A DNA stretch of 64,000 nucleotides from Undaria pinnatifida. Lineage: Eukaryota; Sar; Phaeophyceae; Laminariales; Alariaceae. Below the pieces are notes generated by a model. That model was not told where the DNA came from. It was given only the letters and a program-made list of their open reading frames with translations, and made no database searches. Positions 8,127 through 59,947 of the stretch are shown piece after piece. The translations under genes were made by a program, and so were the position numbers. Position 1 is the stretch's first letter, and each line of letters starts with the position of its first letter. The stretch is taken from positions 12,340,011 through 12,404,010 of the forward strand of contig JABAKD010000007.1 in the NCBI GenBank assembly GCA_012845835.1. Reading direction: 5' to 3'.

Positions 8127-8180
8127 CGCTAGCGTCAACGATCTTCAACGAACCAGTGAGTTGTGCGTTGCTAAGCGCCA

Positions 8181-10189: not shown

Positions 10190-10570
10190 TGGCCGTATGG
10201 TAGCGAGGAATGGGATGCGGACTCGGGAGCTAGTGCGATGATGTCCAACAACAAAGAGGGCATGTACAACATTGGCTACCCTACAGACCAATACATACAG
10301 ATTGACGATTCAAGGTTGATTAGAGTCCAGGCAATCGGGGACGTCAATTTAGTGTTTCACCAGCTCGATGAACACGGAAACCCGGAGGACGTTGTGGCGT
10401 GTGTGCAAGATGTGATATATACTCCATGGCTTGGCTTCAACCTTTTCTCGATTTGGAAGGTGGCTCACAAAAACTCCTGTTCTGTAAACCCCACTGGTAC
10501 GCAAGCGGGAAGGCTCCGCTTCATTCGGGGATCGGCGAACGACTCCCTCTACGCCACCCGACTACCCCCT
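10190..10570 (+). pseudogene. copia protease region
   Basis: Aspartic-protease part of the polyprotein. The active-site-type motif DSGAS is seen at about 10,220, followed by a beta-rich stretch and the hydrophobic YTPWLGFNLFSI segment, which resembles the usual second half of copia proteases (the V-x-Y-x-P-x-L-x-x-N-L-L-S type). It would have processed the Gag-Pol polyprotein within particles. It lies in one long open stretch with the preceding Gag tail. Confidence 0.8.
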
Positions 10571-10775
10571 TCTCCGTTGCCAGTGAATGTAGCGAATAAG
10601 AGTGCCCCCGAGTCTTCTGCTTACAACCCACCGATGCCAGTTGGTGCAGTTGGTTCAGTTGGTGCTTCGCGTGAGAGTGCATTCGTGTCTGCTGCCTGCA
10701 TATCCTCCCCGGTTCCTCTTCGTGAAACCAACCTCGTACAACCTTCGAGCGTTGTGATGGCTTCTCCCATGGGAG

Positions 10776-11960: not shown

Positions 11961-11999
11961 CACGCCGCAGGGGGTGTCATTCGAGATTGCCTCGACGCC

Positions 12000-14900
12000 G
12001 CCAGCCACTGCCGGTCCACTGCCCGCGCACTCACCCAGCGCTTACACCTAGCCGCCACCCGGACCGACTGCTATGCCGCCCTCCGCTGCCGGTTCGCCGA
12101 CGGTGGACTCACCCTGCGCTCACCCTGCGCTCACACCTCGCCACCAACCGGACCGAATGCTATGCCGCCCTCCACCGCCGGTCCGCTGCCCGTGCACTCA
12201 CCCAGCGCTCACACCTCGCCGCCACCCGGACCGACTGTTATGCCGCCCCCCGCTGCCGGTCCGCCGCCCGCGCACTCACCCAGCGCCCACACCTCGCCGC
12301 CACCCGGACCGACTGCTATGCCGCCCTCCACCGTCTGTCCGCTGCCCGCGCACTCACCCATCGCTCACACCTCGCCGCCGCCCGGACTGAATGCTATGCC
12401 GCCTGCCGCTGCCGGTCCGCCGCGCGCGCTCTCACCCAGCGCTCACACCTCGCCGCCACCCGGACCGACTGCTATGCCGCCCGTCGCTGCCGGTCCGCTG
12501 CCCGCGCGCACTCACCAAGCGCTCACACCTCGCCGCCGCCCGGACCAACTGCTATGCCGCCATCCGCTGCCGGTGCGCCGCCCGCGCACTCACCCAGCGC
12601 TCACACCTCGTCGCCGCCCGGACTGACTGCTATGCCGCCGGCCGCTGCCGGTCCGCTGCCCGCGCACTCACCCAGCGCTCACACCTCGCCCCCGCCCGAA
12701 CCGACTGCTGTGCCGCCCGCCGCTGCCGGTCCGCCGATGGCGCACTCACCCAGCGCTCACACCTCGCCGCTGCCCGGACCGACTGCTATGCCGCCCTGCA
12801 CCGCCGGTCCACTGCCCGTGCACTCATCCAGCGCTCACACCTTGCCGCCACTCGGACCGACTGCTTTGCCGCCCCCCGCTGCCGGTCCGCCGCCCGCGCA
12901 CTCACCCAGGGCCCACACCTCGCCGCCATCCGGACCGACTGTTATGCCGCCCTCCACTGCCGGTACGCTGCTCGCGCACTCACCCAGCGCTCACACCACA
13001 CCGCCGGCTGGACCGACTGCTATGCCGCCCGCCGCTGCCGGTCTGCCACCCGCGCACTCACCCAGCGCTCACACCTCGCCGCCACCCGGACCGACTGCTA
13101 TGCCGCCCTCCGCTGCCGGTCCGCTGCCCGCGCACTCACCCAGTGCTCACACCTCGCCGCCGCCCGGACCGACTGCTATGCCGCCCTCCGCTGCCGGTGC
13201 GCCGCCCGCGCACTCGCCAGCGCTCACACCTCGCCGCCGCTCGGACTGACTGCTATGCCGCCCGCCGCTGCCGGTCCGCTGCCCGCGCACTCACCCAGCG
13301 CTCACACCTCGCCCCCGCCCGGACCGACTGCTATGCCGCCCTCCGCTGCCGGTCCGCCGACCGCGCTCTCACCTAGCGCTCACCACTCGCCGCTGCCGCC
13401 CGCCGCTGCCGGTCCGCTGCCCGCGCGCTCACCCAGCGCTCACACCACTTTCTCGTACCCGCCTGCTACTGCAGATACACCGCCTTCAGCAGCCACTTGG
13501 CCACCACCACCGCTGCGATCGTCATCACCGCCGTCGGGGCACTCACCCACCGCTCACACCTCGCCGCCGCCCGAATCGACTGCTATGCCGCCCCCCGCTG
13601 CCGGTCCGCCGCCCGCGCACTCACCCAGCGCTCACACCTCGCTGCCGCCCGGGCCGACTGCTATCCCGCCCGCAGCTGCCGGTCTGCCGCCCGCGCACTC
13701 ACCCAGCGCTCACACCTCGCCACCAACCGGACCGACTGCTATGCCGCCCTCCGCTGCCGGTCCGCTGCCCGCGCACTCACCCAGCGTTCACACCTCGCTG
13801 CCGCCCGGACCGACTGCTATGCCGCCCTCCGCTGACGGTGCGCCGCCCGCGCACTCACCCAGCGCTCACACCTCGCCGCCGCCCGGACTGACTGCTAGGC
13901 CACCCCCCGCTGCCGGTCCGCTGCCCGCGCGCTCACCTAGCGCTCACAACACCTGCTTGTACCCGCCTGCTACTGCAGATACACCGCCTGCAGCAGCCAT
14001 TTGGCCACCACCACCGCTGCAATCGTCATCACCGCCGTCGGCGCACTCACCCACCGCTCACACCTCGCGGATGCCCGGATAGACTGCTATGCCGCCCTTC
14101 GCTGCCGGTCCGCCGCCCGCGCACTCACCCAGCGCTCACACTTTGCCGCCGCCCGGACCGACCGCTATGCCGCCCGTCGCTGCCGGTCTGCCGCCCGCGC
14201 ACTCACCCAGCGCCCACACCTCGCCGCCAACCGGACCGACTGCTATGCCGCCCTCCGCTGCCGGTCCGCCAACCGCGCTCTCACCTAAGGCTCACACCTC
14301 GCCGCTGCCGCCCGCCGCTGCCGGTCCGCCGCCCGCGCGCTCACCCAGCGCTCACACCACTTGTTCCTACCCGCCTGCTACTGCAGGTACACCGCCTGAA
14401 GCAGCCACTTGGCCACCACCACCGCTGCGACCATCATCACCGCCGTCGGCGCACTCACCCAGCGCTCACACCTCGCGGCCGCCCGGACCAACTGCTATGC
14501 CGCCCCCCGCTGCCGGTCCGCCGCCCGCGCACTCACCCAGCGCCCACACCTAGCCGCCACCCGGACCGACTGTTATGCCGCCCCCCGCTGCCGGTACGCT
14601 GCCCGCGCACTCACCCAGCGCCCACACCTCGCCGCCGCCCGGACCGACTGCTATGCCGCTCACCGCTGCCGGTCTGCCACCCACGCACTCACCCAGCGCT
14701 CACACCTCGCCGCCACCCGGACCGACTGCTATGCCGCCCGCCGCTGCCGGTCCGCTGCCCGTTCCTCACCCAGCGCTCACAACTCGCCGCCGCCCGGAAT
14801 GACTGCTTTGCCGCCCTCCGCTGCCGGTGCGCCGCCCGCGCACTCACCCAGCGCTCACACCTCGCCGCCGCCCGGACTGACTGTTTTGCCGCCCGCCGCT

Positions 14901-17900
14901 GCCGGTCCGCTGCCCGCGCACTCACCCAGCGCTCACACCTCGCCCCCGCCCGGACCCATTGCTATGCCGCCATCCGCTGCCGGTCCGCCGACCGCGCTCT
15001 CACCTAGCGCTCACCACTCGCCGCTGCCGCCCGGCGCTGCCGGTCCGCTGCCCGCGCGCTCACCCAGCGCTCACACCACTTGCTCGTACCCGCCTGCTAC
15101 TGCAGATACACCGCCTGCAGCAGCCACTTGGCCACCACCACCGCTGCGATCGTCATCACCGCCGTCGGCGCACTCACCCACCGCTCACACCTCGCCGCCG
15201 CCCGGATTGACTGCTATGCCGCCCTTTGCTGCCGGTCCGCCGCCCGCGCACTCACCCAGCGCTCACACCTCGCCGCCGCCCGGACCGACTGCTGTGCCGC
15301 CCGTCACCGCCGGTCTGCCGCCCGCGCACTCACCCAGCGCTCACAACTCGCCGCCAACCGGACCGACTGCTATGCCGCCCTCCGCTGCCGGTCCGCCGAC
15401 CGCGCTCTCACCTAGCGCTCACACCTCGCCGCTGCCGCCCGCCACTGCCGGTCCGCTGCCGCGCGCTCACCCAGCGCTCACACCTCTTGCTCGTACCCGC
15501 CTGCTACTGCAGATACACCGCCTGCAGCAGCCACTTGGCCACCACCACCGCTGCGATCGTCATCACCGCCGTCGGCGCACTCACCCACCGCTCACACCTC
15601 GCCGCCGCCCGGACCGACTGCTATGCCGCCCTTCGCTGCCGGTCCGCCGCCCGCGCACTCACCCAACGCTCACACCTCGCCGCCGCCCGGACCGACTGCT
15701 ATGCCGCCCCCCGCTGCCGGTCCGCCGCCCGCGCACTCACCCAGCGCTCACACCTCACCGCCACCCGGACCGACTGTTATGCCGCCCCCCGCTGCCGGTC
15801 CGCTGCCCGCGCACTCACCCAGCGCTCACACCTCGCCGCCGCCCGGACCGACTGCTATGCCGACCGCCGCTGCCGTCCTGCCACCCGCGCACTCACCCAG
15901 CGCTCACACCTCGCCGCCACCTGGACCGACTGCCATGCCGCCCTCCGCTGCCGGTCCGCTGCCCGCGCACTCACCCAGCGCTCACACCTCGCCGCCGCCC
16001 GGACCGACTGCTATGCCGCCCTCCGCTGCCGGTGCGCCGCCCGCGCACTCACCCAGCGCTCACACCTCGCCGCCGTCCGGACTGACTGCTATGCCGCCCG
16101 CCGCTGCCGGTCCGCTGCCCGCGCACTCACCCAGCGCTCACACCTCGCCCCCGCCCGGACCGACTGCTATGCCGCCCTCCGCTGCCGGTCCGCCGACCGC
16201 GCTCTCGCCTAGCGCTCACCCCTCGCCGCTGCCGCCCGCCGCTGCCGGTCCGCTGCCCGCGCGCTCACCCAGCGCTCACACCATTTGCTCGTACCCGCCT
16301 GCTACTGCAGATACACCGCCTGCAGCAGCCACCTGGCCACCACCACCGCTGCGATCGTCATCACCGCCGTCGGCGCACTCACCCAGCGCTCACACCTCGC
16401 CGCCGCCCGGACCGACTGCTATGCCGCCCTTCGCTGCCGGTCCGCCGCCCGCGGACTCACCCAGCGCTCACACCTCGCCGCCGCCCGGACCGACTGCTAT
16501 GCCGCCCGCCGCTGCCGGTCTGCCGCCCGCGCACTCACCCAGCGCTCACACCTCGCCACCAACCGGACCGACTGCTTTGCCGCCTTCCGCTGCCGGTCCG
16601 CCGACAGCGCTCTCACCTAGCGCTCACACCTCGCCGCTGCCGCCCGCCGCTGCCGATCCGCCGCCCGCGCGCTCACCCAGCGCTCACACCACTTGCTCGT
16701 ACCCGCCTGCTACTGCAGGTTAACCGCCTGCTGCAGCAACTTGGCCACCACCACCGCTACGATCGTCATCACCGCCGTCGGCGCACTCACCCACCGCTCA
16801 CACCTCGCCGCCGCCCGGACCGACTTCTATGCCGCCCTTCTCTGCCGGTCCGCCGCCCGCGCACTCACCCAGCGCTCACACCTCGCCGCCGCCCGGACCG
16901 ACTGCTATGCCGCCCTTCGCTGCCGGTCCGCCGCCCGCGCACTCACCCAGCGCGCACACCTCGCCGCCGCCCGGACCGACTGCTATGCCGCCCGCCGCTG
17001 CCGGTCTGCCGCCCGCGCACTCACCCAGCGCTCACACCTCGCCACCAACCGGACCGACTGCTTTGCCGCCTTCCGCTGCCGGTCCGCCGACAGCGCTCTC
17101 ACCTAGCGCTCACACCTCGTCGCTGCCGCCCGCCGCTGCCGATCCGCCGCCAGCGCGCTCAGCCAGCGCTCACACCACTTGCTCGTACCCGCCTGCTACT
17201 GCAGGTACACCGCCTGCAGCAGCCACTTGGCCACCACCAATGCTGCGATCGTCATCTTCGCCGTCGGCGCACTCACCCAGCGCTCACACCTCGCCGCCGC
17301 CCGGACCGACTGCTATGCCGCCCTTCGCTGCCGGTCCGCCGCCCGCGCACTCACCCAGCGCGCACACCTCGCCTCCGCCCGGGCCGACTGCCATGCCGCC
17401 CGCCGCTGCCGGTCTGCCGCCCGCGCACTCACCCAGCGCTCACACCTCGCCACCAACCGAACCGACTGCTTTGCCGCCTTCCGCTGCCGGTCCGCCGACA
17501 GCGCTCTCACCTAGCGCTCACACCTCGCCGCTGCCGCCCGCCGCTGCCGATCCGCCGCCCGCGCCAGCACCCAGCGCTCACACCACTTGCTCGTACCCGC
17601 CTGATACTGCAGGTACACCGCCTGCAGCAGCCACTTGGCCACCACCACCGCTGCGATCGTCATCACCGCCGTCGGCGCACTCACCCAGCGCTCACACCTC
17701 GCCGCCAACCGGACCGACTGCTTTGCCGCCTTCCGCTGCCGGTCCGCCGACCGCGCTCTCACCTAGCGCTCACACCTCGCCGCTGCCGCCCGCCGCTGCC
17801 TATCCGCCGCCCGCGCGCTCACCCAGCGCTCACACCACTTGCTCGTACCCGCCTGCTACTGCAGGTACACCGCCTGCAGCAGCCATTTGGCCACCACCAC

Positions 17901-19340
17901 CGCTGCGATCGTAATCACCGCCGTCGGCGCACTCACCCAGCGCTCACACCTCGCGGCCGCCCGGACCGACTGCTATGCCGCCCTCCGCTGCCGGTCCGCC
18001 GCCCGCGCACTCACCCAGCGCTCACACCTCGCCGCCGCCCGGACCGACTGCTATGCCGCCCGCCGCTGCCGGTCTGCTGCCCGCGCACTCACCCAGCGCT
18101 CACACCTCGCCCCCGCCCGGACCAACTGCTATGCCGCCTTCCGCTGCCGGTCCGCCGACCGCGCTCCCACCTAGCGCTCACCCCTCGCCGCAGCCGCCCG
18201 CCGCTGCCGGTCCGCTGCCCGCGCGCTCACCCAGCGCTCACACCACTTGCTCGTACCCGCATGCTACTGCAGATACACCGCCTGCAGCAGCCACCTGGCC
18301 GCCACCACCGCTGCGATCGTCATCACCGCCGTTCGCGCACTCACCCACCGCTCACACCTCGCCGCCGCCCGGACCGACTGCTATGCCGCCCGCCGCTGCC
18401 GGTCCGCCGCCCGCGCACTCACCCAGCGCCCACACCTCGCCGCCGCCCGGACCGACTGCTATGCCGCCCTCCACTGATGGTCCGCTGCCCGCGCACTCAT
18501 CCAGCGCTCAAACCTCGCCGCCGCCCGGACCGACTGCTATGCCGCCCTCCGCGGCCGGTGCGTTGCCCGCGCACTCACCCAGCGCTCACACTTCGCCGCC
18601 TCCCGGACTGACTGCTATGCCGCCCGCCGCTGCCGGTCCGCTGCCCGTGCACTCACCCAGCGCTCATACCTCGCCCCCGCCCGGACCGACTGCTATGCCG
18701 CCCTCCGCTGCCGGTCCGCCGACCGCGCTCTCACCAAGCGCTCACACCTCGCCGTTGCCGCCCGCCGCTGCCGGTGCGCCGCCCGCGCGCTCACCCAGCG
18801 CTCACACCACTTGCTCGTACCCGCCTGCTACTTCAGGTACACCGCCTGCAGCAGCCACGTGGCCACCACCACCGCTGCGATCGTCATCACCGCCGTCGGC
18901 GCACTCACCCAGCGCTCACACCTCGCCGCCGCCCGGACCGACTGCTATGCCGCCCGCCGCTGCCGGTCTGCCGCCCGCGCGCTCACCCAGCGGTCACACC
19001 TCGCCGCCAACCGGACCGACTTCTATGCCGCCCTCCGCTGCCGGTCCGCCTCCCGCGCACTCACCCAGCGCTCACACCTCGCCGCTGCCGCCCGCCGCTG
19101 CTGGTCCGCCGCCCGCGCACTCACCTAGCGCTCACACCACTCGCTCGAACCCGCCTGCTACTGCAGGTACACCGCCTGCAGCAGCCACCTGGCCGCCACC
19201 ACCACTGCGATCGTCATCACCGCCGTCCGCGCACTAACCCAGCGCTCACGCCTCGCCGCCGCCCGGACCGGCTGCTATTTCACCCGCTGTTGCCGGTCTG
19301 CCGCCTTCGCACTCGCCCAGCGCTCTCACACCGCCTGCCG
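12000..19340 (+). repeat. Giant 78-bp (26-codon) minisatellite inside copia pol
   Basis: About 7.3 kb of GC-rich tandem repeats with a 78-bp unit. In one frame the unit encodes a 26-residue peptide such as AHSPSAHTSPPPGPTAMPP with flanking AAGPP. Because 78 is a multiple of three, every forward frame is periodic, so long open stretches appear in all three. The other two read LTQRSHLAAARTDCYA-type and THPALTPRRRPDRLLC-type peptides. A second cassette (CTCGTACCCGCCTGCTACTG to CACCGCCGTCGGCGCACTCA) recurs 13 times. The array occupies the position of the normally short, Pro/Ser-rich linker between integrase and RT. Its base composition differs sharply from the rest of the window. Confidence 0.95.
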
Positions 19341-19349
19341 CATGTTCGC

Positions 19350-20835
19350 CGATGCCGGAGTGGTCTCCCTTTTCCATCGAGGACGCCGGCTCGACGACAT
19401 CGTCATCGATATCACCGGCGGCGACACCGGCCCCGCGGACGTACAGAAGGAGGCAGCCGCCGCCGGTCGCCGCAGGATATTTTTCGCCGCTCACCCCACA
19501 TGCAACGAGGATGTTGGGCGAGAGGGGCGACGAGCGCGCGCCGGGGAGAACTAGGTCGGAGGGCCGTCAGCTTTCGGGCGTGCCGGAAGAAGCGGTCTCT
19601 ACGCTGCTGCCGGAGGCGACGTCGTTCGACCACGGGGTAGGACTCCTATCTCATGCGGGGGAGGATGTGCTGCTGTCGCTGCTGGCCAACCGTCGGGCCC
19701 TAAACGCGAAACGGATGCTCCTGCAGGGGCACGGATCTGGTGAGCTGGGGGGCGGAGGAAAGCAGCATGCGGGGTCGGGGGGCGTGGAAGAGAGCAAAGG
19801 TGCGCCACCATACGACACCACGGGCGGGGGGGGGAGCGGGGGTAACTATCGGTTGCTTGGGCCGTCGGGACGGGGAGTGCCGCTCGGCCTTGTGTCGCGA
19901 CTCGCCACGCGGGAGGATGTCGACGAAGCTCTTCGCGAGATGCGCCCCTCTCACCTGCGGCCCGACATGCCCCTCTGCCACGCCAAGGACCTCCGCGTAC
20001 CAAAGACGTTCAGGGAGGCTCGTGACGGTGAGCATGGCGCACAGTTCATGGACCCGGCTAAGCGTGAGGTGTTCGGTTTGCTTGAAGCAGGCACGTATAA
20101 AATTGTTGACGAGTAGCAACGAATAGACAACGTGATCAGTAGCAAGCTTATTTTTGATTGGAAGGTTGATCAATTTGGTTGGCCTACGAAAGCGAAGGCG
20201 AGACTTGTAGCTAGGGGTGACATGCAGAGAGAGTACATTGACTTCGGAGATTGTACGCGCCTACTGTTGCTTCGTCCAGTGTCCGTTTGTTGGCTGTGTT
20301 GGCGTGTGAACATGACCTAGAGTTGTGATGTTTCGATATAGACCAGGCTTTTGTGAGGGCAGATCTTGCCGAGGATGTCTATATGCGATTGCCAGAAGTG
20401 TGTGGTTCATTGACAGGGAGGGTTGTGAAGCTGAGCAAGAGTCTTTATGGTTTGAGACAGGCGTCCAGACAGTGGTATGCATTACTGAAGAAATGTCTTT
20501 TGGATTTGGGGTTTGTGCAATGCTTGGCCGATTCGTGTGTTTTTCGCTTGGTTGAAGGGGGGGAAGTAGTGATGCACCTAGTGGTGCATGTTGATGATAT
20601 TTTTGCCGTGGGAAAGAAGGAAAGGTGTGATCAGTTCGGAAAGGATCTCGGACGTCTTGTTCCAGTTAAGTCAATCGGCGAGCTCAAGTGGTACTCGGGG
20701 TGCTATTACGAGAGAGACAGGGAGGCAGGGAGGTTGACAATTTCGCAACAGACGTACACGGAAGAATTGGGAGAGAAGCATGGTGTGGAGTGGGACAACA
20801 CTATTCTGATTTCTACAACTTGGAGGCTTTGATGA
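19350..20835 (+). pseudogene. copia linker end and reverse-transcriptase region
   Basis: After the minisatellite there is a Gly/Arg-rich linker, then the start of a copia-type RT (RVT_2). The segments PKTFREARDGEHG (about 20,006) and KAKARLVARGDMQREYIDF (about 20,190-20,245) are characteristic. SLYGLRQASRQWY (about 20,437-20,475) and the YVDD-equivalent HVDDIF (about 20,588-20,605) follow. RT would copy element RNA to cDNA in particles. The region is broken in several places. Confidence 0.92.
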
Positions 20836-21059
20836 TTTTGATGTTGACGAGCCAAATGTTCTGTTTCCTTTCCGAGAGTTGATCGGTGCGCTTTTGTGGA
20901 TTGCCTTGTTGACCAGGCCGGATATCGCGAATTCAGTGAGGGCAGTAGCAAGGCATTGCAGTGCCCCAAGCTGATCCACTGGAAAGCGGCACGTAGTATA
21001 CTAGGGTATGCAATGAGGACGAGTTCTTTTGGGATTTCCTTTCAGAAGGGGACGTTGAC

Positions 21060-21535
21060 GGGGATTAGTTTGATTTCGTTCGCAGATGCCGTTTATGCTT
21101 CGCGCAGTACGGACAGGAGAAGGGCGTCCGGGGGGGTAGTGATGTGTGCGGGGGCCTGTTTCGTGGTACTCCAAGACGCAGAAGTGTGTGACTCTCTCGA
21201 CTACTCAGGCGGAGTATGTGGCTATGTCGGACATGGGGAAGGAGATTTTATTTTTGAGTAAGGTTTGGTGTTTTATGTTGCCGAAGGCAAGGATGCCGTG
21301 CATTGCCATGTATGAGGATAACGAGGGTGACATCCAAATCGCAAAGCACCCGATTTCGAACTCGAACTCGAAGCACAATGACGTGAGGCATCAATTTTTG
21401 AGGGAACTGGTAGAAAGGAAGGACGTCGAAATTATCCACGTAGCGTCGCAGTACCAGCATGCTGACTTCCTCACCAAGGCGTTACCTGAGAGGGAGTTTG
21501 AATTTCACCGGGGGATAGTGATGAATTTGACGTGA
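21060..21535 (+). pseudogene. copia RNase H region
   Basis: The C-terminal RNase H domain of copia pol. Diagnostic pieces are the VSWYSKTQKCVTLSTTQAEY segment (about 21,155-21,215), YEDNEGDIQIAKHP (about 21,310-21,350) and HNDVRHQFLRELVE, with the final ASQYQHADFLTKALP (about 21,445-21,490). The last open stretch runs from 21,146 to 21,535. It would have removed the RNA template during cDNA synthesis. Confidence 0.93.
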
Positions 21536-21839
21536 TTTCTCTCTCGGATAGTGTTTGATTTTCTGACTTCCTATTTCTTACATGTTTCTTTGTTTTGTTT
21601 TCTGATGTATATTTATGAGGGTTCAAGGATTTGCATTCAAGTTGATCGATGGAAAATACTGAATAGTGTTTGAGTTTTAATGGTCATGGATGTGATGAGA
21701 ATGGATTTGAGTGTTTTTGCAAATGCAACATTTTTTTGTTTTCTAGACTTGAGTAAAGAAAAACTCTGCAGTATTTTGGTATCTGGGAATGGACGTTTTA
21801 AAAAAGGTAGTCTGGATAAATCATGACAATGTTGCGAGT

Positions 21840-21847
21840 AGGGGAGC
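21840..21847 (+). other. Polypurine tract of the copia element
   Basis: AGGGGAGC lies immediately before the TG of the 3' LTR, in the position and composition expected of the plus-strand primer. The 21,536-21,839 stretch between RNase H and this site is AT-rich, noncoding, and has no other feature. Confidence 0.7.
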
Positions 21848-22356
21848 TGTTGGACGTACTCACTCCATTGTCAGATTGCAAACAAGAATCCGTCGAAAAG
21901 ATGGATTTGAGAATTTTGGGGGTTTCGTATATGTGTGGGATGGATCTCCACAACGGTATTTTGTTGTGTGGATTTTTTTGTTCCCGGATAATATCACTCT
22001 ATTTTTCGACTCTATTTTTGCCTCTACCTTGTGTCTTCTCTGTGTCTGTTCTACGGCTACCACGCCTAAGGCGACCACGCCCCATCTATATTGCAAGGGC
22101 TATCACGCCTTCACCACTGCACGGCTACCACGCATGTATATTTACATCCCGGCTACCACGCCACAGTTCCGAGCTCCATTTCCGGGTTATCGCACCTGGG
22201 CTATCACGCTTCACCACACACGTAAATCGGGTTATCACACCTGACTTAGTTAGTACTTAAAAGTAGTTCGTAGTCTACCGATAACCGGCTATTACGCCAC
22301 CTTTCCCCTCCACCTACACCACCACCGGGGCATCACACGTACCAACCTACTCCGCA
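21848..22356 (+). repeat. 3' LTR of the copia element (509 bp)
   Basis: Begins TGTTGGACGTAC and ends TACTCCGCA. It aligns with the 5' LTR at roughly 92-93% by eye, with two length differences of about 10-13 bp. The GGCTAYCACGCC-like motif cluster is kept. Confidence 0.95.
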
Positions 22357-27693: not shown

Positions 27694-27727
27694 TATCTTC
27701 AAGATCGCACCCCCAACACCAGCGATG

Positions 27728-27908
27728 ATCGTAAGGGACGTTTAATGGCTGCTCGACACGAGGAAGGATGCTGTTAAAAAAAAAATCACCCTACACGTTC
27801 TTTATTAAAAATGGATATCGAACGATGACGTCGGGGTTGCAAGAGGCACCGTGTTTGAGGAGGTACGCTAGAGCAGGACACGAGCTACGACAGAAGTAGC
27901 ACTTTTCA
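27728..27908 (-). repeat. R3 dispersed repeat, longer copy
   Basis: Read on the minus strand it starts with the R3 core (AAAAGTGCTACTTCTGTCGT). It continues through AAACACGGTGCCTCTTGCAA and CCCGACGTCATCGTTCGATA to the CGTGTCGAGCAGCCATTAAA end. The same order is found at 51,850-52,035 and, reversed, at 57,112-57,312. This copy joins the short R3 cores and the longer segment into one family. Confidence 0.65.
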
Positions 27909-38300: not shown

Positions 38301-39356
38301 AACTACGAACGATAAATTCCGCGTAAAGGTGGATATATTTTTCTTCGTCTTTGAATTTGGATATTGCAGTTCATTGGTGTGGATAATTCGATGCCGTTAT
38401 ATCACGAGAATACCCGTTTTGCTGCCGTTAGTGGCATGAAAAAAAAAAAGGTGAACTCTGCAGAGATATAGCGTTTTTTCTAATTAACGACTGTAGACAA
38501 CAATGAGCAGCAAGCCTTTAGTTAATCATACACGTACATGTCCGGAGTGCAGCAAACGCGCCGAGCTGGCAAAGGCGCAAAGGGAAACAAAATCAACTAC
38601 CTTTGTGGAAGAACTGCGCAAAACAACAAAAATTAATGGCTGATTGATCTTGCGTACCCGGTCGAGTGGGGACCTGCACGATGAGGAGTAGATGCCCTAA
38701 CGGTGCGTAAACAACGCGTCTCTTTGAAAAAAGTTGTTTAACTGATGAATTCAAAGTATTGAATGCACGAAACGACGACAAAAATGACGAGGTAAGCAAA
38801 TAGCTGTTGATGTTCAGCACACACTGTAGGCAACTCTACTTCGGTAAGGAATCCTTTTACAACCTATGGCGCACCTATTAAAAGAGGTGTAGGAAAAGCA
38901 ACGGGAGCCGGCCATCGTCTCTAAAAAAGGGTACGTGTACGTGGTTTTGATCGGTCGTGAATTTTGGGGTTATGTTTCTCGCCTAGCGGGACGCCCGGAT
39001 GCTGGCTGTCTAGCGTACACAAACGAGGGGGAATATGACATTGTTGCTGTAGAGGTGTCCGCTTGAATAGACGATACACCAGGGGGTGTTTTGCACTCGA
39101 GTGTGATTGTTCATTTGCCGTGGAATACGGCGCAGTATTCCGTAGGAGTGCCACGATTGAGACGCACCGGATGTTTTTCTATTTTTGGGAGCTTAAGACC
39201 TCTCGCAGAAACTGATAATTGGAGTATCAACTAAACAACGGCGGTTTGAAAACCTGCCATTTGTCTAGGTACACAGAGAGGAGCATGCCAAAAATACACC
39301 CAAACAGCCAAACACCCAAGCAAATTACGACGATTTTGGGTGAAGCAGCCTTGTCA
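35366..39356. other. Stretch without recognisable genes
   Basis: Several frames of 80-160 codons occur on both strands (notably around 36,130-36,400 and 37,680-38,170). They overlap each other in opposite directions and carry no known domain. No repeats beyond short runs are evident. Confidence 0.45.
37679..38167 (-). CDS. Weak hypothetical ORF, 162 aa
   Basis: The longest frame outside the copia element and the 57-kb frame: 162 codons with mixed composition and no recognisable motif. The forward strand is also open across much of the same region, where a segment reads PMALVHGWTWYVGLGAEKGE. That makes it unclear which strand, if either, codes. There is no promoter or neighbouring gene. It may be a decayed exon or a chance frame. 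Confidence 0.14.
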   Translation of the reverse strand: MSGQLGLLLNPSLSIAEITVFAKAANYEKTDARRGAIPSSNSHFSSPRFRICFSLLFQLQGRRTTSNRGLMPWVIGQKYYTSQLHAKYFQTCQTFGHQVHSGSEPQRAHGAQLSIFRTGSTQIGDVFQKVLSTRTKTCWTQATVGGSFLGARASVPRGHSRE

Positions 39357-39490: not shown

Positions 39491-41327
39491 TTCAAGCGCA
39501 TTTCAAAAAGTCGTGGAGATATTACATGTCCTGTTCAAATTCTAAAAACATGTCAACGTCATCAGCACTAAAGACTAGATTCCGTGAAGTGTCGTCGTGA
39601 AACAACATTGTTGACATTGGTAGGGAGATAAATAAATCGAGTTTGAGATGGTGAACCGGCGCCGTCCTGATCAACGACCGTAGACGGCCTTGAGCAACAA
39701 GCCTTGAGGTACTCATGCACTAGCATAAGGGGAATTTAGAAAACGCGTGAAGTTGGCGAAGGCGTCACCGGATTTTTTTTTTTTTAAAAGTACATAGAAG
39801 TAGATACAGTGCAAAAATTTACGACTAGACGACTGCTCGAACGTTTCACACGAGGCGGAATCGCGGCCCAGACAGTGTACATTTCATTCTGTGTAGCTGT
39901 ATACATACAACGTGCCGCTTGAAACTGCTCCTTCCTCTCGCCGTTCAACATTCTGGAAACACACAGATCTGCGGATTGACGACTGGCATCGAGAAATTGT
40001 TGTCGGTGCAACAAGCACTGACACGAACAACCTAGAGTCGGAGCAAAAACGCGCGAAGGACAATCAGGACGTTCCATGGGTGTTCGCAATGGAGAGAGAG
40101 GAGTCCCGCCAATGTGCGCAAGAAAAATAACTAATTCGACCTGGTATGTCCAAGAGATGCGTGCCGTGGTTAGTGTAGTTTTGATATTGCGGTCGTGGCG
40201 GTTGAAATATCCTTTTACGTCGTGTGATTCACATGTCCGGGACGCTATCGCGTGCACGCCCTTCTGCCTAACTTGTTGACCCTTTCATTCACCCAACCGT
40301 CCATCCAGCAACATCTTTTCACTTCGTCATCACAATTCAACTACACACAATTTTCAAACAGTTCAAAACTGTGGAGTGAAGTTCGTATGGTTCTACGATA
40401 GCCTGTCTCCCAAAGTCAGTGATGTTATTAACAAACCGTTTCTGGGCTTGTCAACACGGGGAAGGATGCTTTCAAAATATGTCTTCGTGCTAAACCCTCA
40501 CCCTAGAACTAAGAGAGAGGATTCCCGCCAACGTCTCCAAATGCGTATCCGTGTATGCATTATGTATGTCCTTCATTCCTTGGGTATCGGCGTCATCGAA
40601 CGGAAAACAGCGATATCGTTTGCCTGGTATTCAGTATCGTTGTGCGTTACACACCTTGAATGCGTCGGAAAAAAACAAAATATCCGCATCATTACGTTCC
40701 GTCGCTCACAAGAGCACACTGAGCAACTGTCTGACGATATTGTCTTCTAGTCAACCAATCAAACCTTGGAGTGTGGCTCACCGACCGATAGTTGGACCAA
40801 ATCTTAATTGAACTTCCTTGCCAACAGAACTACCAGCTTCGCGCGGAGGTCGAGCGTCCCAAGGTTAAACAAGTCCTACTGACCAATGCGTCGGGGCGAG
40901 AAAAAGACGAGTTCAGCAATATCGTACACACGCCTGGACGCGTGCCACTACGGTACAACAGCTTTTGAACCGGGTTGTCCAAAAAAAAGAGCGTGCCGTG
41001 ATAAATGATGTTGTGATATTGCGTTCGTGGTGATTGTACTGTCCTTCTGCATCATATTACTCACATGCCCAGGTCGATATCGCGTGCACGCCTTCCCGCC
41101 GTACTTGTTGCCTCATTCATCAACCCAACCGTCCAGCCAGCAACCTCATTTTACTTCGCCATCACAATATCATTACACACAATTTTCTTACAGTTAAATA
41201 ATGTGGAGTGAAATTTAATTGGGTCTACGATAGCCTGTCTCCCAAGAATAGCGATGTTCATGAAGACCGTTTCCAGGCTTGTCAACAAGGGGAAGGATGC
41301 CTTCAAAATATGTGTCTTCGTGCCAAA

Positions 41328-41346
41328 CCCTAACCCTAACCCAGAG
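41328..41346 (+). repeat. Telomere-like CCCTAA patch in array unit
   Basis: AACCCTAACCCTAACCC, two and a half CCCTAA repeats. It is repeated at 42,162-42,180 in the next unit and in decayed form (AACGTTAACCATAACCC) near 42,980, 43,809 and 44,625. It is part of the array unit, so it spread by unit duplication, not by chromosome-end fusion at each place. Confidence 0.75.
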
Positions 41347-41575
41347 AAAGGATTCCCGCCAACGTCTTCAAATGAGTGTACGTCTATGCATGGTATATGC
41401 CCTATATTCTCTGGGTATTATGGTCATTGAGCGGAAAACGGCAACATCGTTTGCTTTGTATGCAGTAGCGTCGTGCGTTTCACACCTTGCATCCGCCGGA
41501 AAAAAAGCAACACAGGCATTGATACCTTCCGTTGATCAAGAGAGCACCCCAAGCAACTCCAACATTTTCTTCTAG

Positions 41576-41813
41576 TCAACCGTCCAACCTTGAATGTGGC
41601 CGAATGACCGATCGATCGATCGACCGAACCTTACTTGAAACGCCTCACCAACAGAACTACCAGCTTCGCGCGAAGGTCAAGAGTGCTAAGGTGGAACACC
41701 ACCGACTGACCCAGGAGTTGGAGCGAGAACGAAGATGTGTTCAGGAATATCGTACACACTCCGAGACGTGTGCCACTGAATTCGAAGAGGCTTATCACTC
41801 GCTTGATCAAGAG
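41576..41813 (+). CDS. Exon-like coiled-coil block, unit 2
   Basis: 238-nt block between a CTTCTAG and a GAG/GTGCGTG signal, one codon longer than the 235-nt blocks in units 3-6. It encodes a Gln/Glu/Arg-rich peptide with QELERERRCVQEYRTH and SLDQEVRAV, and hydrophobic residues roughly every three to four positions, as in a coiled coil. Function unknown. The splice signals are inferred from sequence only. Confidence 0.35.
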
Positions 41814-42404
41814 GTGCGTGCCGTGATAAATGATGTTTTGGTATTGCGTTCGTGGTGCTTGTATTGTCCTTCTGCATAATATTACTCACATGTCCAGGTC
41901 AATATCTCGTGCACGCCTTTCCGCCGTACTTGTTGCCCCATTCATCAACCCAACCGTCCAGCCAGCAACCTCATTTCACTTCGCCATCACAATATCATTA
42001 CACACAATTTTCTTACAGTTAAATGAAAAGTGCAGTGAAATTTAATTGGGTCTACGATAGCCTGTCCCCCAAGAACAGCGATGTTTATGACAGACCGTTT
42101 TCAGTCTTGTCAACAAGGGGAAGGATGCCTTCAAAATATGTGTCTTCGTGCCAAACCCTAACCCTAACCCAGAGAAAGGATTCCCGGTAACGTCTTCAAA
42201 TGAGTGTACGTCTATGCATGGCATATGCCCTATATTCTCTGGGTATTAGCGTCATTCAACGGAAACCGGCAACATCGTTGGCCTTGTATGCAGTAGCGTT
42301 GTGCGTTTCACACCTTGCATCCGCCGGGAAAAAAAAAAAACAGCCATCGATACCTTCCGTTGATCAAGAGAGCACGCCAACCAACCCGCGACATTTTCTT
42401 CTCG

Positions 42405-42639
42405 TCAACCCATCCAACCTCGAATGTGGCCGACCGACCGATTGGTCGACCGAACCTTACTGGAAACGCCTCACCAACAGAACAACGAGCTTATCGCGGA
42501 GGTCAACAGTGCTAAGGCGGAACACCTCCGACTGACCCAGGAGTTGGAGCGAGAACGAAGCCGTGTTCAGGAATATCGTACACACGCCAAGACGCGTGCC
42601 ACTATGGTCGAAGAAGCTTCTAACCGGCTTGTTCAAAAG
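42405..42639 (+). CDS. Exon-like coiled-coil block, unit 3
   Basis: 235 nt. Upstream is TTTTCTTCTCG, where other units have CTTCTAG, so the putative acceptor AG is altered here. An ATG (42,424) opens a frame running MWPTDRLVDRTLLETPHQQN, then ELIAEVNSAKAEHLRLTQ, a heptad-like coiled coil, to LVQK just before GTGCGTG. About 207 bp later CTCGCAG/TTGAAAAC is acceptor-like. Near-identical to unit 5. Confidence 0.35.
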
Positions 42640-43231
42640 GTGCGTGCCGTGATAAATGATGTTTTGATATTGCGTTCGTGGTGCTTGTATTGTCCTCCTG
42701 CGTCATATGACTCACATGTCCAGGACGATATCGCGTGCACGATAATCCGCTGTACTCGTTGCTCCATTCATCTACTCAACCGTCCATCCGTCAACCTCAT
42801 ATAACTTCGCCGTCACAATTAAACACTACACACATTTCTCTCGCAGTTGAAAACTGTGAAGTCAAATTCTCTTGGTTCTACGATGGTCCGTCTCCCCAAA
42901 ACAGCGATTTAAAAAAAAAATAAACATTTTTCGGCTTTTTAACACGGGGAAGGATGCCTTCCAAAATTGTCTTCGTGCTAAACGTTAACCATAACCCAGA
43001 GAACGGATTCCCGCCAACGTTTCTAAATGCGTGTATCTGTGTGCATTTGATATGTCCTTTATTCCCTGGGTATTGAGTTTCGAACAGAAAACGACGATGT
43101 CGTTTGCCTTGTATTCAGTATCGTTGTGCGTTGCACAGCTTTCATCCGCCGGGAAAAAAAAAAAACAGCCATCGATACCTTCCGTTGCTCACATGAGAGC
43201 ACACTAAGCAACTCACGATATTTCCTTCTAG

Positions 43232-43466
43232 TCACCCCATCAAACCTTGAAAGTGGCCGACTGACCGATTGGTCGATCGAACCTTACCTGAAACGCCTCA
43301 CCAACAAAACCACCAGCTACGCGCGGAGGTCAAGAGTGCTAAGGCGGAACACCTCCGACTGACCCAGGAGTTGGAGCGAGAACGAAGCCGTGTTCAGGAA
43401 TATCGTACACACGCCCAGACGCGTGCCACTGTGGTCGAAGAAGCTTCTAACCGGCTTGTTCAAAAG
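43232..43466 (+). CDS. Exon-like coiled-coil block, unit 4
   Basis: 235 nt between TTCCTTCTAG and GTGCGTG. The coiled-coil frame is fully open, but the ATG of units 3 and 5 is AAG here. It encodes TPHQQNHQLRAEVKSAKAEH and the common QELERERSRVQEYRTHAQTR part. Its flanks match unit 6 rather than units 3 and 5, showing that pairs of units were duplicated together. Confidence 0.35.
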
Positions 43467-44054
43467 GTGCGTGCCGTGATAAATGATGTTTTGATATTGC
43501 GTTCGTGGTGCTTGTATTGTCCTCCTGCGTCATATGACTCACATGTCCAGGACGACATCGCGTGCACGATATTCCGCTGTACTCGTTGCTCCATTCATCT
43601 ACTCAACCGTCCATCCGTCAACCCCATATGACTTCGCCATCACAATTGAACACTACACACATTTCGCTCGCAGTTGAAAACTGTGAAGTCAAATTCTCTT
43701 GGTTCTACGATGGTCCGTCTCCCCAAAACGGCGATGTTCTAAAAAATATGGTTTTTTGGCTTTTCAACACGGGGAAGGATGCCTTCCAAAATTGTCTTCG
43801 TGCTAAACGTTAACCATAACCCAGAGAACGGATTCCCGCCAACGTTTCTAAATGCGTGTATCTGTGTGCATTTGATATGTCCTTTATTCCCTGGGTATTG
43901 AGTTTCGAACAGAAAACGACGATGTCGTTTGCCTTGTATTAAGTATCGTTGTGCGTTGCACAGCTTTCATCCGCCGGGAAAAAAAAAAAACAGCCATCGA
44001 TACCTTCCGTTGATCAAGAGAGCACGCCAACCAACCCGCGACATTTTCTTCTCG

Positions 44055-44289
44055 TCAACCCATCCAACCTCGAATGTGGCCGACCGACCGATTGGTCGAC
44101 CGAACCATACTTGAAATGCCTCACCAACAGAACAACGAGCTTATCGCGGAGGTCAACAGTGCTAAGGCGGAACACCTCCGACTGACCCAGGAGTTGGAGC
44201 GAGAACGAAGCCGTGTTCAGGAATATCGTACACACGCCCAGACGCGTGCCACTATGGTCGAAGAAGCTTCTAACCGGCTTGTTCAAAAG
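44055..44289 (+). CDS. Exon-like coiled-coil block, unit 5
   Basis: 235 nt, almost the same as unit 3, including the CTCG where an acceptor CTAG would be expected and an ATG at 44,074. The donor-like AAAAG/GTGCGTG and the 207-bp distance to CTCGCAG are conserved. The low divergence from unit 3 implies a recent duplication. Confidence 0.35.
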
Positions 44290-44879
44290 GTGCGTGCCGT
44301 GATAAATGATGTTTTGATATTGCGTTCGTGGTGCTTGTATTGTCCTCCTGCGTCATATGACCCACATGTCCAGGACGATATCGCGTGCACGATAATCCGC
44401 TGTACTCGTTGCTCCATTCATCTACTCAACCGTCCATCCGTCAACCCCATATAACTTCGCCATCACAATTGAACACTACACACATTTCGCTCGCAGTTGA
44501 AAACTGTGAAGTCAAATTCTCTTGGTTCTACGATGGTCCGTCTCCCCAAAACAGCGATGTTCTAAAAAAAAACGTTTTTTGGCTTTTCAACACGGGGAAG
44601 GATGCCTTCCAAAATTGTCTTCGTGCTTAACCTTAACCATAACCCAGAGAACGGATTCCCGCCAACGTTTCAAAAATCGTGTATCTTTGTGCATTTGATA
44701 TGTCCTTTATTTTCTGGGTATTGAGTATCGAACAGAAAACGACGATGTCGTTTGCCTTGTATTCAGTATCGTTGTGCGTTGCACAGCTTTCATCCGCCGG
44801 GAAAAAAAAAAACCAGCCATCGATACCTTCCGTTGCTCACATGAGAGCACACTAAGCAACTCACGATATTTCCTTCTAG

Positions 44880-45114
44880 TCACCCCATCAAACCTTGAAA
44901 GTGGCCGACTGACCGATTGGTCGATCGAACCTTACCTAAAACGCCTCACCAACAGAACGACGAGCTTATCGCGGAGGTCAAGAGTGCTAAGGTAGAACAC
45001 CTCCGACTGACCCAGGAGTTGGAACAAGAACAAAGCCGTGTGCAGGCCTATCGTGCAAAAGCAAGGACGTGTGCTACTATGGTCGAAGAGGCTTCTAACC
45101 GGCTTGTCCAAAAG
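44880..45114 (+). CDS. Exon-like coiled-coil block, unit 6 (last)
   Basis: 235 nt between TTCCTTCTAG and AAAAG/GTGCGTG. The frame is open. The coil diverges in its second half (QELEQEQSRVQAYRAKARTC). The downstream acceptor-like TTCACAG is at 45,317. The array ends near 45,450 with a GCGAGTAAGG that looks like a donor, absent in the other units (GGGGAAGG), so this terminal unit may preserve an older state. Confidence 0.35.
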
Positions 45115-45450
45115 GTGCGTGCCGTAATAAATGCAGCTTTGAGATTGCGCTCGTGGTGCTGTAATATCCGTCTACGTCATATGATTCACATATCCGGGAC
45201 GCAATCGCGTGCACGTCATTCCGCCGGACTTGTTGCCCCCTTCATCCACCCAACCGTCTCCCCAGCACCAATTTTTTTCTTCACGACCACAATATAACTA
45301 CACACAATTTTTCACAGTTGAAAACTGTCGAGTAAAATTGGCTTCGTTCTGTAATAGCCTGTCTCCGTTAAACCGCGATGTTCTTAACCAATCGTTTCTC
45401 GGCTTCTCAAAGCGAGTAAGGATGCCTTTTTAATATGTCTTCGTGTGTTT

Positions 45451-48240
45451 TCATTTTTTGAAATGATCTGTCTCACTATCACGTCTGGATGGACAGGTAC
45501 ACCGTACTGAATAAGATATAGTCTGCAGCGGGTTTCATAAACGGTGATTTAGTTTAGGAGAAGTTGAGGGGCTATCACGAAACGACTTTTTTTTTGTCTC
45601 ATCCGGCGTTGATGTCAGAAACAATAAACATGACATGATTATCCATTGACATAATTTTCCTAAGGGTTCGTTCATGAAGTAAAAAACTTTTTATGCGTTT
45701 CGAATCATCATATTGACATTCCCTGGTCGTCGCCTTCCATTCCCGGAACAGGATATTGCACTACATGAACTCCTCCAAGCGGCAACTCTGTAGCAAGATC
45801 CGGCCGTGTCGTACATTGGCATCGCTCAAAGGAGGACAACAGCGTGACTCGGATAGCGTCAAAATTTACTTTTTGGCGTTAGATATATTGCTTGGGCGTG
45901 GACGGGTATTCCATCATAAGTACCGCACTCAATGTTTTTTTGTTTTGTGAACGATCGCGCTCCGCAACCCAAAAACGCATCATTGCAAAAAAAACGGTTT
46001 CGTGTTCGGCCTTCCGCTTTCGACAGCTATTTCCTCGGGTTGAACATTTAGTTTAGTCAAATAAGTCTTGGGAAGCGACAAACGGTCTCTACGTTTCTGC
46101 CCCAGTGTATGTCACCCAAGGAACGTTCATTGTTCCTAACGACATTAGTGTCATGGGTCGTACATGTCGATTTCTGCCGTTGACGTCTTGGTCCTGTGTG
46201 CAGTAGCAGCAGTAATACCGCAAATCTCGGCAAGGTATACTATCGATTAACAGACCAACACAACACGCAAACATTATGGCTTTCCCTGGGTCGTTTTGGT
46301 GCGCACACGTTTAACGGGCGCACGTTCGAAACGACGTGACTCAGGATTGTTTGAGTCGACACCTACGAAAAGGGCTGAAGTCCACCGATAATGTACAAAC
46401 GTGGAGTATGGATTATACTGTCTTCGGTGGGTGTGAACGGGCTTACCACGTGGCAAGCCCGACACCATCTAGAGGATTCTGAACGATTAAAACAATTGAA
46501 AGTGTTGAATAAGATAATCGAACTATATTTGTGGCTTGATTCGATGATATCAATTTCGCTGCTTGATACCAGGGGGAGAGAAATAATGTACTGCGCGAAA
46601 GGGGCAACGTTGCCGTATAACGTGTAACATTGCATCATTTATGACTTGCTCTGACATTTGTAACGTCTTGTCAACTACTGCGGCAAAACAGTAAAATACG
46701 AAGTGGTTTATCTGTCCCCCGTTCGACCAATCAAACAATTTGCTGAAAATTCGTGCACAAGATAGAGATTCTTCGTAACGAGGTGTAGACTAATTGCCTC
46801 GCTGTTTTTGGCGATTGAGTTATTTATTGCGGTATATGATTCTCGCCTTCTGCCGCACGCTCAAGGCTGGTTGACTGAACTCTGAACAACAGAAGGCGAC
46901 ACTGACACCCAAGGGAGGAGTTACTGCAAAGGAACCAATTACACGAGCAAGGCAGGGCGAACCAATGGCAAGAGCGCAGATAGAGTGGGCGCATAAAGAG
47001 TCGTCGCTTAGTTTGGTACGGGTTTGCAGTTATTTAGAGACCTAACGTGACTTCAAACAAAATTACAAATAGTGGAACACATTGCCATGCTTTCAATTGC
47101 TCCGCTGTGGGGACTTGAGCGGCACAAGTATAGCATAGGTTCATATACGCGGGATCGTTTCGTACCTCCAATATTTTATCAATGGGTTTTGAACATATGA
47201 TGCTGTAGTGCTATAATAGTGTTAGCGTCAGCATCGTTCGCGTAATACCATAGGGATCTCCCCACGTGGAGGTCACGAGATTGAGCTCCTTTGCGAGCGC
47301 GGTCTTTCACCACCACTAGCGATTAGAAGTTGTGGTCGAATTGCGCGAACTGAAACCTTCGACAAACAACGTTCGGGTTAGGTAAAGAGCTCTCCATTCT
47401 CGGAAATCAGAAAGATCGGCTGCACCCTTAGTCGGGAAGGACTCCATGACACTACACAACCAGAGAAGTCATTGAACAGGCCGGTGTTTTGGGAGTTTGA
47501 GCGGGGTCCGAGAACCTTTTACTGGTACAGATGGAGAGCTCGCTAAAGACGAAAGACGTTTCATAGTTTGGAATACTAAAAATTATATGCGTCCAATAGT
47601 GTTGAATTGCGTAGAACAAACATCAACCCACGCACATAGTCCTTTTATGTCATGTTTTTGCAGGGGGAGTTTTTAAAATGATATTATTATTGTTGTTAAC
47701 GTCTGAAGCCGTCAACACAATTTACAGTCCTTAAACGTCGTACGCCATCGTCGTCGAACGTAATTGAAACAAATATGCTCGCGGGAATGGCGCTCAGTTG
47801 ACAGTAGCCACCAGGTATCGCAACGGAGTATTTACCAGGAACAAGGTGTGCTTGTCACCATTCGATATCAAACGGTATTTTGACCGTAGGCTGTTAAACT
47901 AAAAGGCACCGTAACAGTGGCATTCGTTTGCCGAAAAGTAGCTTACATTGCTTTCATCATCGTTGCACTATCGACGAAACAGATGCAGTGATGCAGTGTT
48001 TTAGCCCTCGTGTGTATACTGTACGGATGACCACAGGAGGGTTTTTTGTGTATCGTGTCATCCCACCGTAGTGTAAAGGGTTGGACTTCTTCAATTAAAC
48101 ATTTGTAACTGTTTGGGCTGCTCGAGTGCATTGTATGGCGATTGCTGAGAAGAGTACAAATTATCTAGGACTATAATACAGCACAAAAATAAATGTTGTT
48201 CGAGTTACGTCAGCGAAAGTCTATCTTCGAAGTCATGTTT
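45451..48240. other. Stretch without recognisable genes
   Basis: No recognisable protein, RNA gene or repeat. The longest frames are about 90 codons. One (46,391-46,627) has a helical-looking KVLNKIIELYLWLD segment but no support beyond that. Confidence 0.45.
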
Positions 48241-51710: not shown

Positions 51711-51849
51711 AACTCATAGGACGAAGCCAATTTCAAACGACGACGGCAGCAAAAGGGCATCTAGAAAGCGAAATGCCCAAAGGGCAGGGTCAACATCGTG
51801 CGAAAAATGGTCGATTATATGTCTTCAGGCACATTTCGACGTTCAAAAC

Positions 51850-52035
51850 CAGCTCCTGGTAATATTTGCTGAAACACGGTGTCCCTCGATACCCCGACGT
51901 CATCGATTCACAGACCTTTGCACACAAGAAAATATGTGGATTTTTTTTTTCAATCGTTTCCTTCCTTGTGTCGTGCAGCCATGAAACGTTCGTTAAAGAA
52001 TATCGCTGGTTTTGGGGAGGGCTATCGTGGAATCA
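51850..52035 (+). repeat. R3 dispersed repeat, longer copy
   Basis: Contains AACACGGTGTCCCTCGATA, CCCCGACGTCATCG, AGAAAATATGTGGAT and ATGAAACGTTCGTTAAAGAA in the same order as the reverse complement of 57,112-57,312 and, partly, 27,728-27,908. Confidence 0.7.
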
Positions 52036-52282
52036 GCCGTGGGGAAGCCTGTCGACGATATGCTACCGACAGCATGCTGAAGATGACCCGCCACACAAAA
52101 ATGAGCGGCGAATAATGATATCGCGGTAATGGTTGAATTTGTTGGATTGTCAAACAATGCACCTGACCCACTGAGCTCCTCAACCGTTAAACAACCCCAG
52201 GCGAATAAGATAATTTTAAAGGTGCACTTGTGTTTACTATAAACTATCACTCTGAAATATCCGTTGGGTTGGGCGAACCCTA

Positions 52283-57111: not shown

Positions 57112-57312
57112 CTGATTCTACGATAGCCCCCCCAAAAAACCAGCGAGTTTCTTAAACGAACGTTTCATGGCTACTCGACACGGGGAAGGATGATATGAAA
57201 AGTACAATCGCCACATATTTTCTTGTAGGCAAAGGACTATCGAAGGATGACGTCGGGGGAGCAAGGGGCATCGTATTTCAGGAGATAGGGCCGGGCGAGC
57301 TGGTTTCGAAAC
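57112..57312 (-). repeat. R3 dispersed repeat, longer copy
   Basis: Reverse complement of the 51,850-52,035 block: the CATGAAACGTTCGTTTAAGA end, GAAAATATGTGGCGATT, and CGATAGTCCTTTGCC / GACGTCATCC parts match in order. Confidence 0.7.
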
Positions 57313-57435
57313 CGGCGATTTTGTTCTAGAAATGTTGGGGGGGGTACCGTAGAACAACTCGTTAATCCAATAGTGATATGTGCTACATTTCAATGGCGCT
57401 TGGATAAGTGCCACACATCACTCTATTTGTAAAAT

Positions 57436-59397: not shown

Positions 59398-59947
59398 TGT
59401 AGTGCGTTATGGGACCGCCGCGTGAGAGAACCGTCAGAGAGTTTTTGGGCAGCGGGACCGCCGAGCGAGAGGACCGCCAACGGGTTTTGAGCAGCGGAAC
59501 CACGAGAGAGGGAACCGCTAGGACGTTTTGGGTAGCCGGACCGCCGAGTGAGGGGACCTCCAAAGACTTTAAGGCAGCGAGACAGCTGATTTGACTTTAT
59601 ACTAAAACGTACAGATTTACTATTTTGCTATACCGTATATAAGCTTAATACGCGTTTGGAAAACGAGGTGTCCGGACCATATACTTAAACGTACAGATTT
59701 TCCCAATTAAATTTCTCTAAATAGGAAATCTGTACCTTGTAGTATAAAGTCAAATCGGCTGTCCCGCTGCCTTAAAGTATTTTGCGGTCCCCTCACTCGG
59801 CGGTCCCGCTACCCGAAACCTCTCGGCGGTCCCCTCTCTCGGTGGTCCCTCTGCTCAAAACCCGTTGGCGGTCCCCTCGCTCGGCGGTCCCGCTGCTCAA
59901 AAACGCTCTGGCGGTTCCCTCACGCGGTGGTCCCCTAACGCACTACA
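59398..59947. mobile_element. 550-bp palindromic element with tandem-repeat arms
   Basis: Left arm 59,398-59,619 and right arm 59,726-59,947 (222 bp each) are inverted copies. The outer ends are TGTAGTGCGTTA and its complement; the inner ends are AAAGTCAAATC-type and GTACAGATTT. Each arm holds four imperfect 43-bp direct repeats of the type GGGACCGCCGAGCGAGAGGA followed by GTTTTGAGCAGC. The spacer of about 106 bp is AT-rich. It resembles Foldback-type elements, whose long inverted repeats are themselves internally repetitive. No transposase is present. Confidence 0.8.

Follow-up and report, generated by a model that had tools for sequence, protein, structure and literature searches.

The 64,000-nucleotide (nt) stretch of Undaria pinnatifida DNA analyzed here (GenBank assembly GCA_012845835.1, contig JABAKD010000007.1, positions 12,340,011 to 12,404,010), referred to throughout as the window, contains a tandem array on its forward (+) strand at 40,147-45,445. 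The array consists of a short exon-like block alternating with a longer intron-like spacer, and its units are named U1 to U7 by their order along it. The candidate splice donors that follow the blocks are spaced 832, 825, 826, 827, 823, and 825 bp apart. A preliminary description of this DNA had reported a tandem array of ~827-bp units beginning at 39,960. The array and its period, at 823-832 bp, are borne out, but the alignment places the start of homology at ~40,147, ~10 nt upstream of the site where U1 has lost its donor, and the BLAST match begins at 40,135.

In five of the six exon copies (U3-U7), the block is exactly 53 codons (159 nt) long and in phase 0 on both sides. The donor GTGCGTGCC is intact in five of the six copies, as is the acceptor AG, and both are present in four. 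The blocks of U3-U7 end at a GTGCGTG donor, and the acceptor reads CTCACCAACAG in four of these five. Four of the six copies (U3, U4, U6, and U7) are intact in frame and at both splice sites. In the case of U5, an in-frame CAG located 9 nt inside the exon could serve as acceptor, which would leave 50 codons. The block had earlier been drawn as 78 open codons, present in each unit and built around a QELERERSRVQEYR core. The splice-like borders favor a shorter block of 53 codons (159 nt); the frame itself continues beyond the donor to stops 21, 54, 54, 54, and 60 codons further in U3-U7. An open block is carried by five of the seven units, while U2 is frameshifted with a stop and the first unit lacks significant similarity to the exon. 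The core is exact in three of the six exon copies (U4, U5, and U6) and varies in U3 and U7.

The predicted products of the five frame-intact copies contain no proline or glycine, consist of E, K, R, D, or Q at 42-45% of residues, and have heptad scores of 0.86-1.18 in the same best register. Background windows were drawn from outside the array and outside 7.3-22.4 kb. Of 10,401 stop-free windows of 53 codons, 91 lacked proline and glycine and none of these reached a heptad score of 0.8, as compared to five of five array copies. This match counts as one observation because the five copies are homologous. AlphaFold2, applied to the five-copy alignment, predicted a single helix spanning residues 2-52 with a mean predicted local distance difference test (pLDDT) score of 97.2. 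A Foldseek search against PDB returned no match; a helix on its own carries little fold information, and this outcome was expected. The whole window was also scanned for phase-0 segments bounded by YAG and GTRNG that pass the helix criteria. All 11 matches on the plus strand were nested in U3-U7, and the six on the minus strand all fell at 14.8-17.5 kb, in a GC-rich minisatellite. A proline lies four residues ahead of the acceptor in all five frames, so the helix starts at the border and the left border agrees with the helix. For the right exon border, the evidence is the GT and the phase, not helix character.

The array is probably a tandem duplication of one internal coiled-coil exon together with its intron, and the exon copies may be, or may once have been, spliced into a rod. 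Repeated exons of a larger coiled-coil protein had been one of two options in the preliminary description, and it is the one that agrees with 159-nt phase 0-0 blocks, borders that are mostly AG on the left and GTGCGTG on the right, and a product that forms one predicted helix. Since the intact exons are a multiple of three in length with phase 0 on both sides, splicing from exon to exon would add 53 residues per copy without breaking the frame. Fifty-three residues correspond to six heptads plus an 11-residue hendecad, so a stutter at each junction could carry the heptad stripe onward, and coiled coils tolerate such stutters. The exons probably are, or were, joined by splicing; their product would be a coiled-coil rod, which may still be made.

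Coordinates of the array, its exon and intron copies, and the features at its two edges (positions in the window).
Feature	Position	Strand	Remarks
Left edge (first unit of the preliminary description)	39960..40146	+	Exon homology not detected; open frame, unrelated or very decayed, ends here
Tandem array	40147..45445	+	6 copies of the 53-codon exon (1 decayed), 6 full and 1 partial intron copies, period 823-832 bp
Intron copy 1	40157..40827	+	671 nt; donor GT reads AT
Exon U2, decayed	40828..40988	+	161 nt, frameshifted, in-frame stop; AG kept at the acceptor, GA in place of GT at the donor
Intron copy 2	40989..41654	+	666 nt
Exon U3	41655..41813	+	53 codons, AG and GT intact; most diverged intact copy, 64% amino acid identity to U4
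Intron copy 3	41814..42480	+	667 nt
Exon U4	42481..42639	+	53 codons, AG and GT intact
Intron copy 4	42640..43307	+	668 nt; 3' end AA, not AG
Exon U5	43308..43466	+	53 codons; AA in place of AG at the acceptor, donor intact
Intron copy 5	43467..44130	+	664 nt
Exon U6	44131..44289	+	53 codons, AG and GT intact; 158/159 nt identical to U4
Intron copy 6	44290..44955	+	666 nt
Exon U7	44956..45114	+	53 codons, AG and GT intact; 81% amino acid identity to U4
Partial intron copy, right array edge	45115..45445	+	Sequence match to other units
Longer copy of dispersed MITE-like repeat, across right array edge	45347..45571	+	

Each of the six full intron copies (664-671 nt) contains 82-97 bp of a dispersed repeat, which was therefore probably inside the intron before amplification. 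Other copies of this repeat, a diverged family of ~240 bp, lie at 57,116-57,354 (+), 51,842-52,036 (-), and 27,703-27,865 (+). The copy at 57,116-57,354 has 20-bp terminal inverted repeats (90%), and the family is called miniature inverted-repeat transposable element (MITE)-like for this reason. Only part of the repeat sits in the intron; the inverted ends belong to that separate copy. Two short telomere-like runs of CCCTAACCCTAA, the only ones in the window, occur at 41328 and 42156, in the introns after U2 and U3.

Identity among the units is highest in the center of the array (94-97%), and the edges have diverged. Unit 4 (42,470-43,310) is 96.8% identical to U6, 93.9% to U5, 82.1% to U3, and 79.0% to U2, as compared to 75.9% for U1 (704 columns) and 78.3% for U7 (508 columns); the six alignments span 508-849 columns. 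Identity is also patchy within units. In the case of U5, the 100 nt before the exon are 98% like U7 and the 100 nt after it are 99% like U4. U2 and U3 are 91% alike after the exon and 73% alike within and before it. Unequal crossing over or gene conversion would be expected to leave such a mosaic while the edge copies go on diverging. The proposed course of events would begin in an intron-rich gene, with an internal exon that is symmetric (phase 0-0) and encodes a 53-residue alpha-helical coiled-coil stretch. This exon may have been duplicated in tandem with a ~667-nt intron that already held the piece of dispersed repeat. Copy number would then have been altered, and the central copies homogenized, by unequal crossing over or gene conversion, while copies at the edges would drift or die.

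Substitutions were compared among the frame-intact copies to assess coding constraint. In U3-U7, 39 of the 159 exon sites vary (15, 11, and 13 by codon position). In the five pairs counted, the exon has no indels, whereas ~340 nt of intron contain 0-4 indel events. Ratios of nonsynonymous to synonymous substitution (dN/dS, NG86 method) were calculated pairwise, and a ratio well below 1 had been proposed earlier as a mark of genes. Ratios of this kind were found for U7 against U4, U5, and U6 (0.41, 0.46, and 0.40; uncorrected Fisher p 0.04 for U4-U7) but not for U3 against the same three copies, where they range from 1.7 to 4.2. The U3-U7 ratio is 1.04, those of U4-U5 and U5-U6 are 2.23 and 1.90 (7-8 changes), and U4 and U6 differ by one change. 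The U7 exon is 0.85-0.88 identical to U4-U6, versus 0.76-0.80 for the intron. In a neutral simulation that used the intron substitution spectrum and started from the consensus, an approximation and not a reconstructed ancestor, the joint chance that U3, U5, and U7 contain no stop, proline, or glycine was P 0.0013. When an open frame, no proline or glycine, and a heptad score equal to or above that observed were all demanded, the values were 0.00065 (U3), 0.0147 (U7), and 0.056 (U5). A simulation of all five copies with an assumed 60% transitions gave P 0.0006 for no stop, proline, or glycine. These results are read as past constraint on the helix; a coding role today is putative.

A number of observations weigh against the interpretation as spliced coiled-coil exons. 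U2 is dead and U5 lacks the acceptor AG. Neither Pfam, run at 24-64 kb, nor the helix scan recognized a flanking exon, and short or non-helical exons would escape both. The left boundary of the array falls at an exon end, so the context that preceded the duplication is missing. The frame remains free of proline and glycine past the donor for 18 residues in U3-U6 and 27 in U7, and the helix does not fix the donor border. The dN/dS of U3 is 4.24, 1.74, and 4.24 against U4, U5, and U6, with 2 synonymous and 22 nonsynonymous changes between U3 and U4 (Fisher p 0.11, uncorrected), and both 100-nt flanks of the U3 exon are better conserved than the exon itself when compared to U4 and to U6. Four of the five copies (U3, U4, U6, and U7) also have an antisense frame open across the whole block, with a stop near one end in U5, and 12 of the 24 U3-U4 changes are synonymous in that frame. 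The simulations, with their approximate starting point, are also weak in some forms: for single copies, the chance of no stop, proline, or glycine was P 0.053 (U3), 0.092 (U7), and 0.38 (U5), and the absence of stops alone in all five copies gave P 0.135.

Several of these points would also fit a pseudogenic array, in which an exon from a coiled-coil gene survives as copies that are now a dead, satellite-like fragment and the center looks intact only through its youth. The 94-97% identity of the central copies marks them as young, and the lost donor of U1, the frameshift of U2, the lost acceptor of U5, the dN/dS above 1 of U3 against U4-U6, and the lack of a flanking exon or of any Pfam-recognized gene at 24-64 kb are what such an array would display. 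However, the two older intact copies, U3 and U7, differ from the consensus by 23 and 18 changes and still have an open frame, both splice sites, and the helix (joint P ~0.001 with U5), and the dN/dS of U7 against U4-U6 is 0.40-0.46. A pseudogenic array is considered unlikely. If the array is dead, it shows the passage of an exon fragment into satellite-like evolution.

Two further explanations are much less probable. The array could be an ordinary satellite or non-coding tandem duplication with an accidental helix block, or its product could be encoded on the minus strand. The array is tandem and homogenized, and its edge divergence and mosaic homogenization are as satellites would show, but it carries a coding-type block. 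The open antisense frame and the antisense-synonymous changes described above would suit a minus-strand product, but no Pfam match up to an expectation value (E) of 0.1 was obtained in any of the five antisense frames scanned, the U5 antisense frame has a stop, and no Rfam match was found. The helix signature, absent from all 10,401 background windows, and the confinement of all 11 plus-strand exon-like matches to the array argue further against an accidental block, and this explanation is very improbable. The lowest probability of all is given to a tandem family of small genes, one per unit, which had been the other option in the preliminary description. Five units have an open block that continues past the donor, and three of the five have an in-frame ATG 17-19 codons upstream. 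That ATG is missing in the other two and the stops lie at differing distances past the donor, with no conserved position, which makes stand-alone genes unlikely; the proline four residues before the acceptor in all five, which puts the start of the helix at the border, also counts against them.

The exon reading can be carried further, to a live gene in which the number of copies of a 53-residue exon, still expanding via unequal crossing over, determines how long the rod is, with U3-like copies outpacing the introns at the protein level while the heptad stripe is kept. This extension is offered tentatively and is rather doubtful. If the array is expressed, it would offer a clear example from nature of a fibrous protein that lengthens one whole exon at a time, with intermediate and dead copies still visible side by side, and one could ask directly whether individuals differ in copy number and hence in rod length.

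The array is filed under the general known kind of tandem exon duplication, here with a helical unit. In arthropod Dscam, duplicated exons that encode parts of immunoglobulin domains are spliced one at a time. The present array would resemble Dscam in having tandem exon duplicates within one gene; unlike in Dscam, the reading frame passes from each intact copy into the following one, and all of them could therefore be joined. In brown algal ROCO genes, as reported (PMC11378527), leucine-rich repeats (LRRs) are encoded by arrays of 72-bp exons in phase 2, one repeat per exon, alongside a ROC-COR domain, and exon shuffling and diversifying selection are reported. As in those arrays, tandem exons of fixed length are separated by introns in one phase, but the exons here are 159 bp, in phase 0, and helical, and no partner domain was found. 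The LRR motif gave no Pfam match in the three single exons scanned from the present array, whose exon is predicted to be all-helical. Tetrahymena LRR genes, as reported (PMC6564038), number in the thousands and contain 90-bp exons in phase 2. They share with the present array the equal-length exons and single intron phase; expansion by unequal crossing over was proposed there, and a mobile element lies near the arrays. In contrast, a single array is seen here, its unit is a helix, and each intron itself contains the mobile element, as a MITE-like fragment.

Searches were made for a host gene and for relatives of the exon. Pfam was run at 24-64 kb on 100 plus-strand frames and 96 of 99 minus-strand frames, mostly leaving out frames under 66 amino acids; the best E values were 0.0022 and 0.0032, and none was convincing. 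Joining three exons produced Pfam matches such as RII_binding_1 (E 4.4e-07, with no stretch passing alone). Three single exons gave nothing below 0.019, and these matches were therefore rejected as repeat and composition bias, as was CortBP2 (E 0.01, 3 of 100 frames). A PDB sequence search yielded seven weak matches (best E 0.13). No exon relatives were confirmed in IMG/VR viral contigs, including for an exact 38-bp DNA core, or in GTDB prokaryote genomes, as expected for a nuclear gene. Rfam gave no match in the window at the gathering threshold, nor in 39.5-45.9 kb at E up to 1, and a tRNA scan found none. The array was not found in the literature searched, where text searches cannot query a sequence.

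At the left edge, the intron of the first unit is homologous to those of the other units (74-76%). A seventh exon is not supported there, as both DNA and protein similarity fall within the shuffled range. For 39,960-40,134 against the U3, U4, and U7 exons, 141, 282, and 169 of 500 dinucleotide shuffles reached the DNA score and 51, 233, and 80 of 1000 shuffles the protein score, none of which is significant. Just upstream of the array, 38480-38577 and 39667-39764 form a 98-bp ungapped duplicate with 71% identity. An ATG frame, MSSKPLVNHTRTCPECSKRAELAKAQ, is present in the 38480-38577 copy, and stops interrupt that frame in the 39667-39764 copy. The segment 38,497-38,640 was considered as an upstream exon and rejected, because 185, 504, and 39 of 1000 shuffles resembled the exon as closely, which places it inside the shuffled range or close to it. 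Where this segment matches 39,667-39,764, frames other than this one give the strongest similarity.

Elsewhere in the window, a Copia-type long terminal repeat (LTR) retrotransposon occupies 7615-22353, with two ~510-bp LTRs that are 89% identical and matches to Retrotran_gag_2, Pol_BBD, rve, and RVT_2 (E 1.4e-21 for RVT_2). This element and the intron-like structure suggest that the window is nuclear eukaryotic DNA. Inside the retrotransposon are ~7 kb of GC-rich (72-74%) 78-bp tandem repeats (12.1-19.3 kb), which by our reading of the frames lie between the integrase and the reverse transcriptase. The Copia frame at 9302-10783 had no match among plasmids. Two 42-bp minisatellites at 59411-59583 and 59784-59934, ~200 bp apart, appear by eye to be one unit in opposite orientations. 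A 13-bp minisatellite (AATCATTAGCGAG, ~19 copies) with a 65-bp higher-order period is located at 4990-5235.

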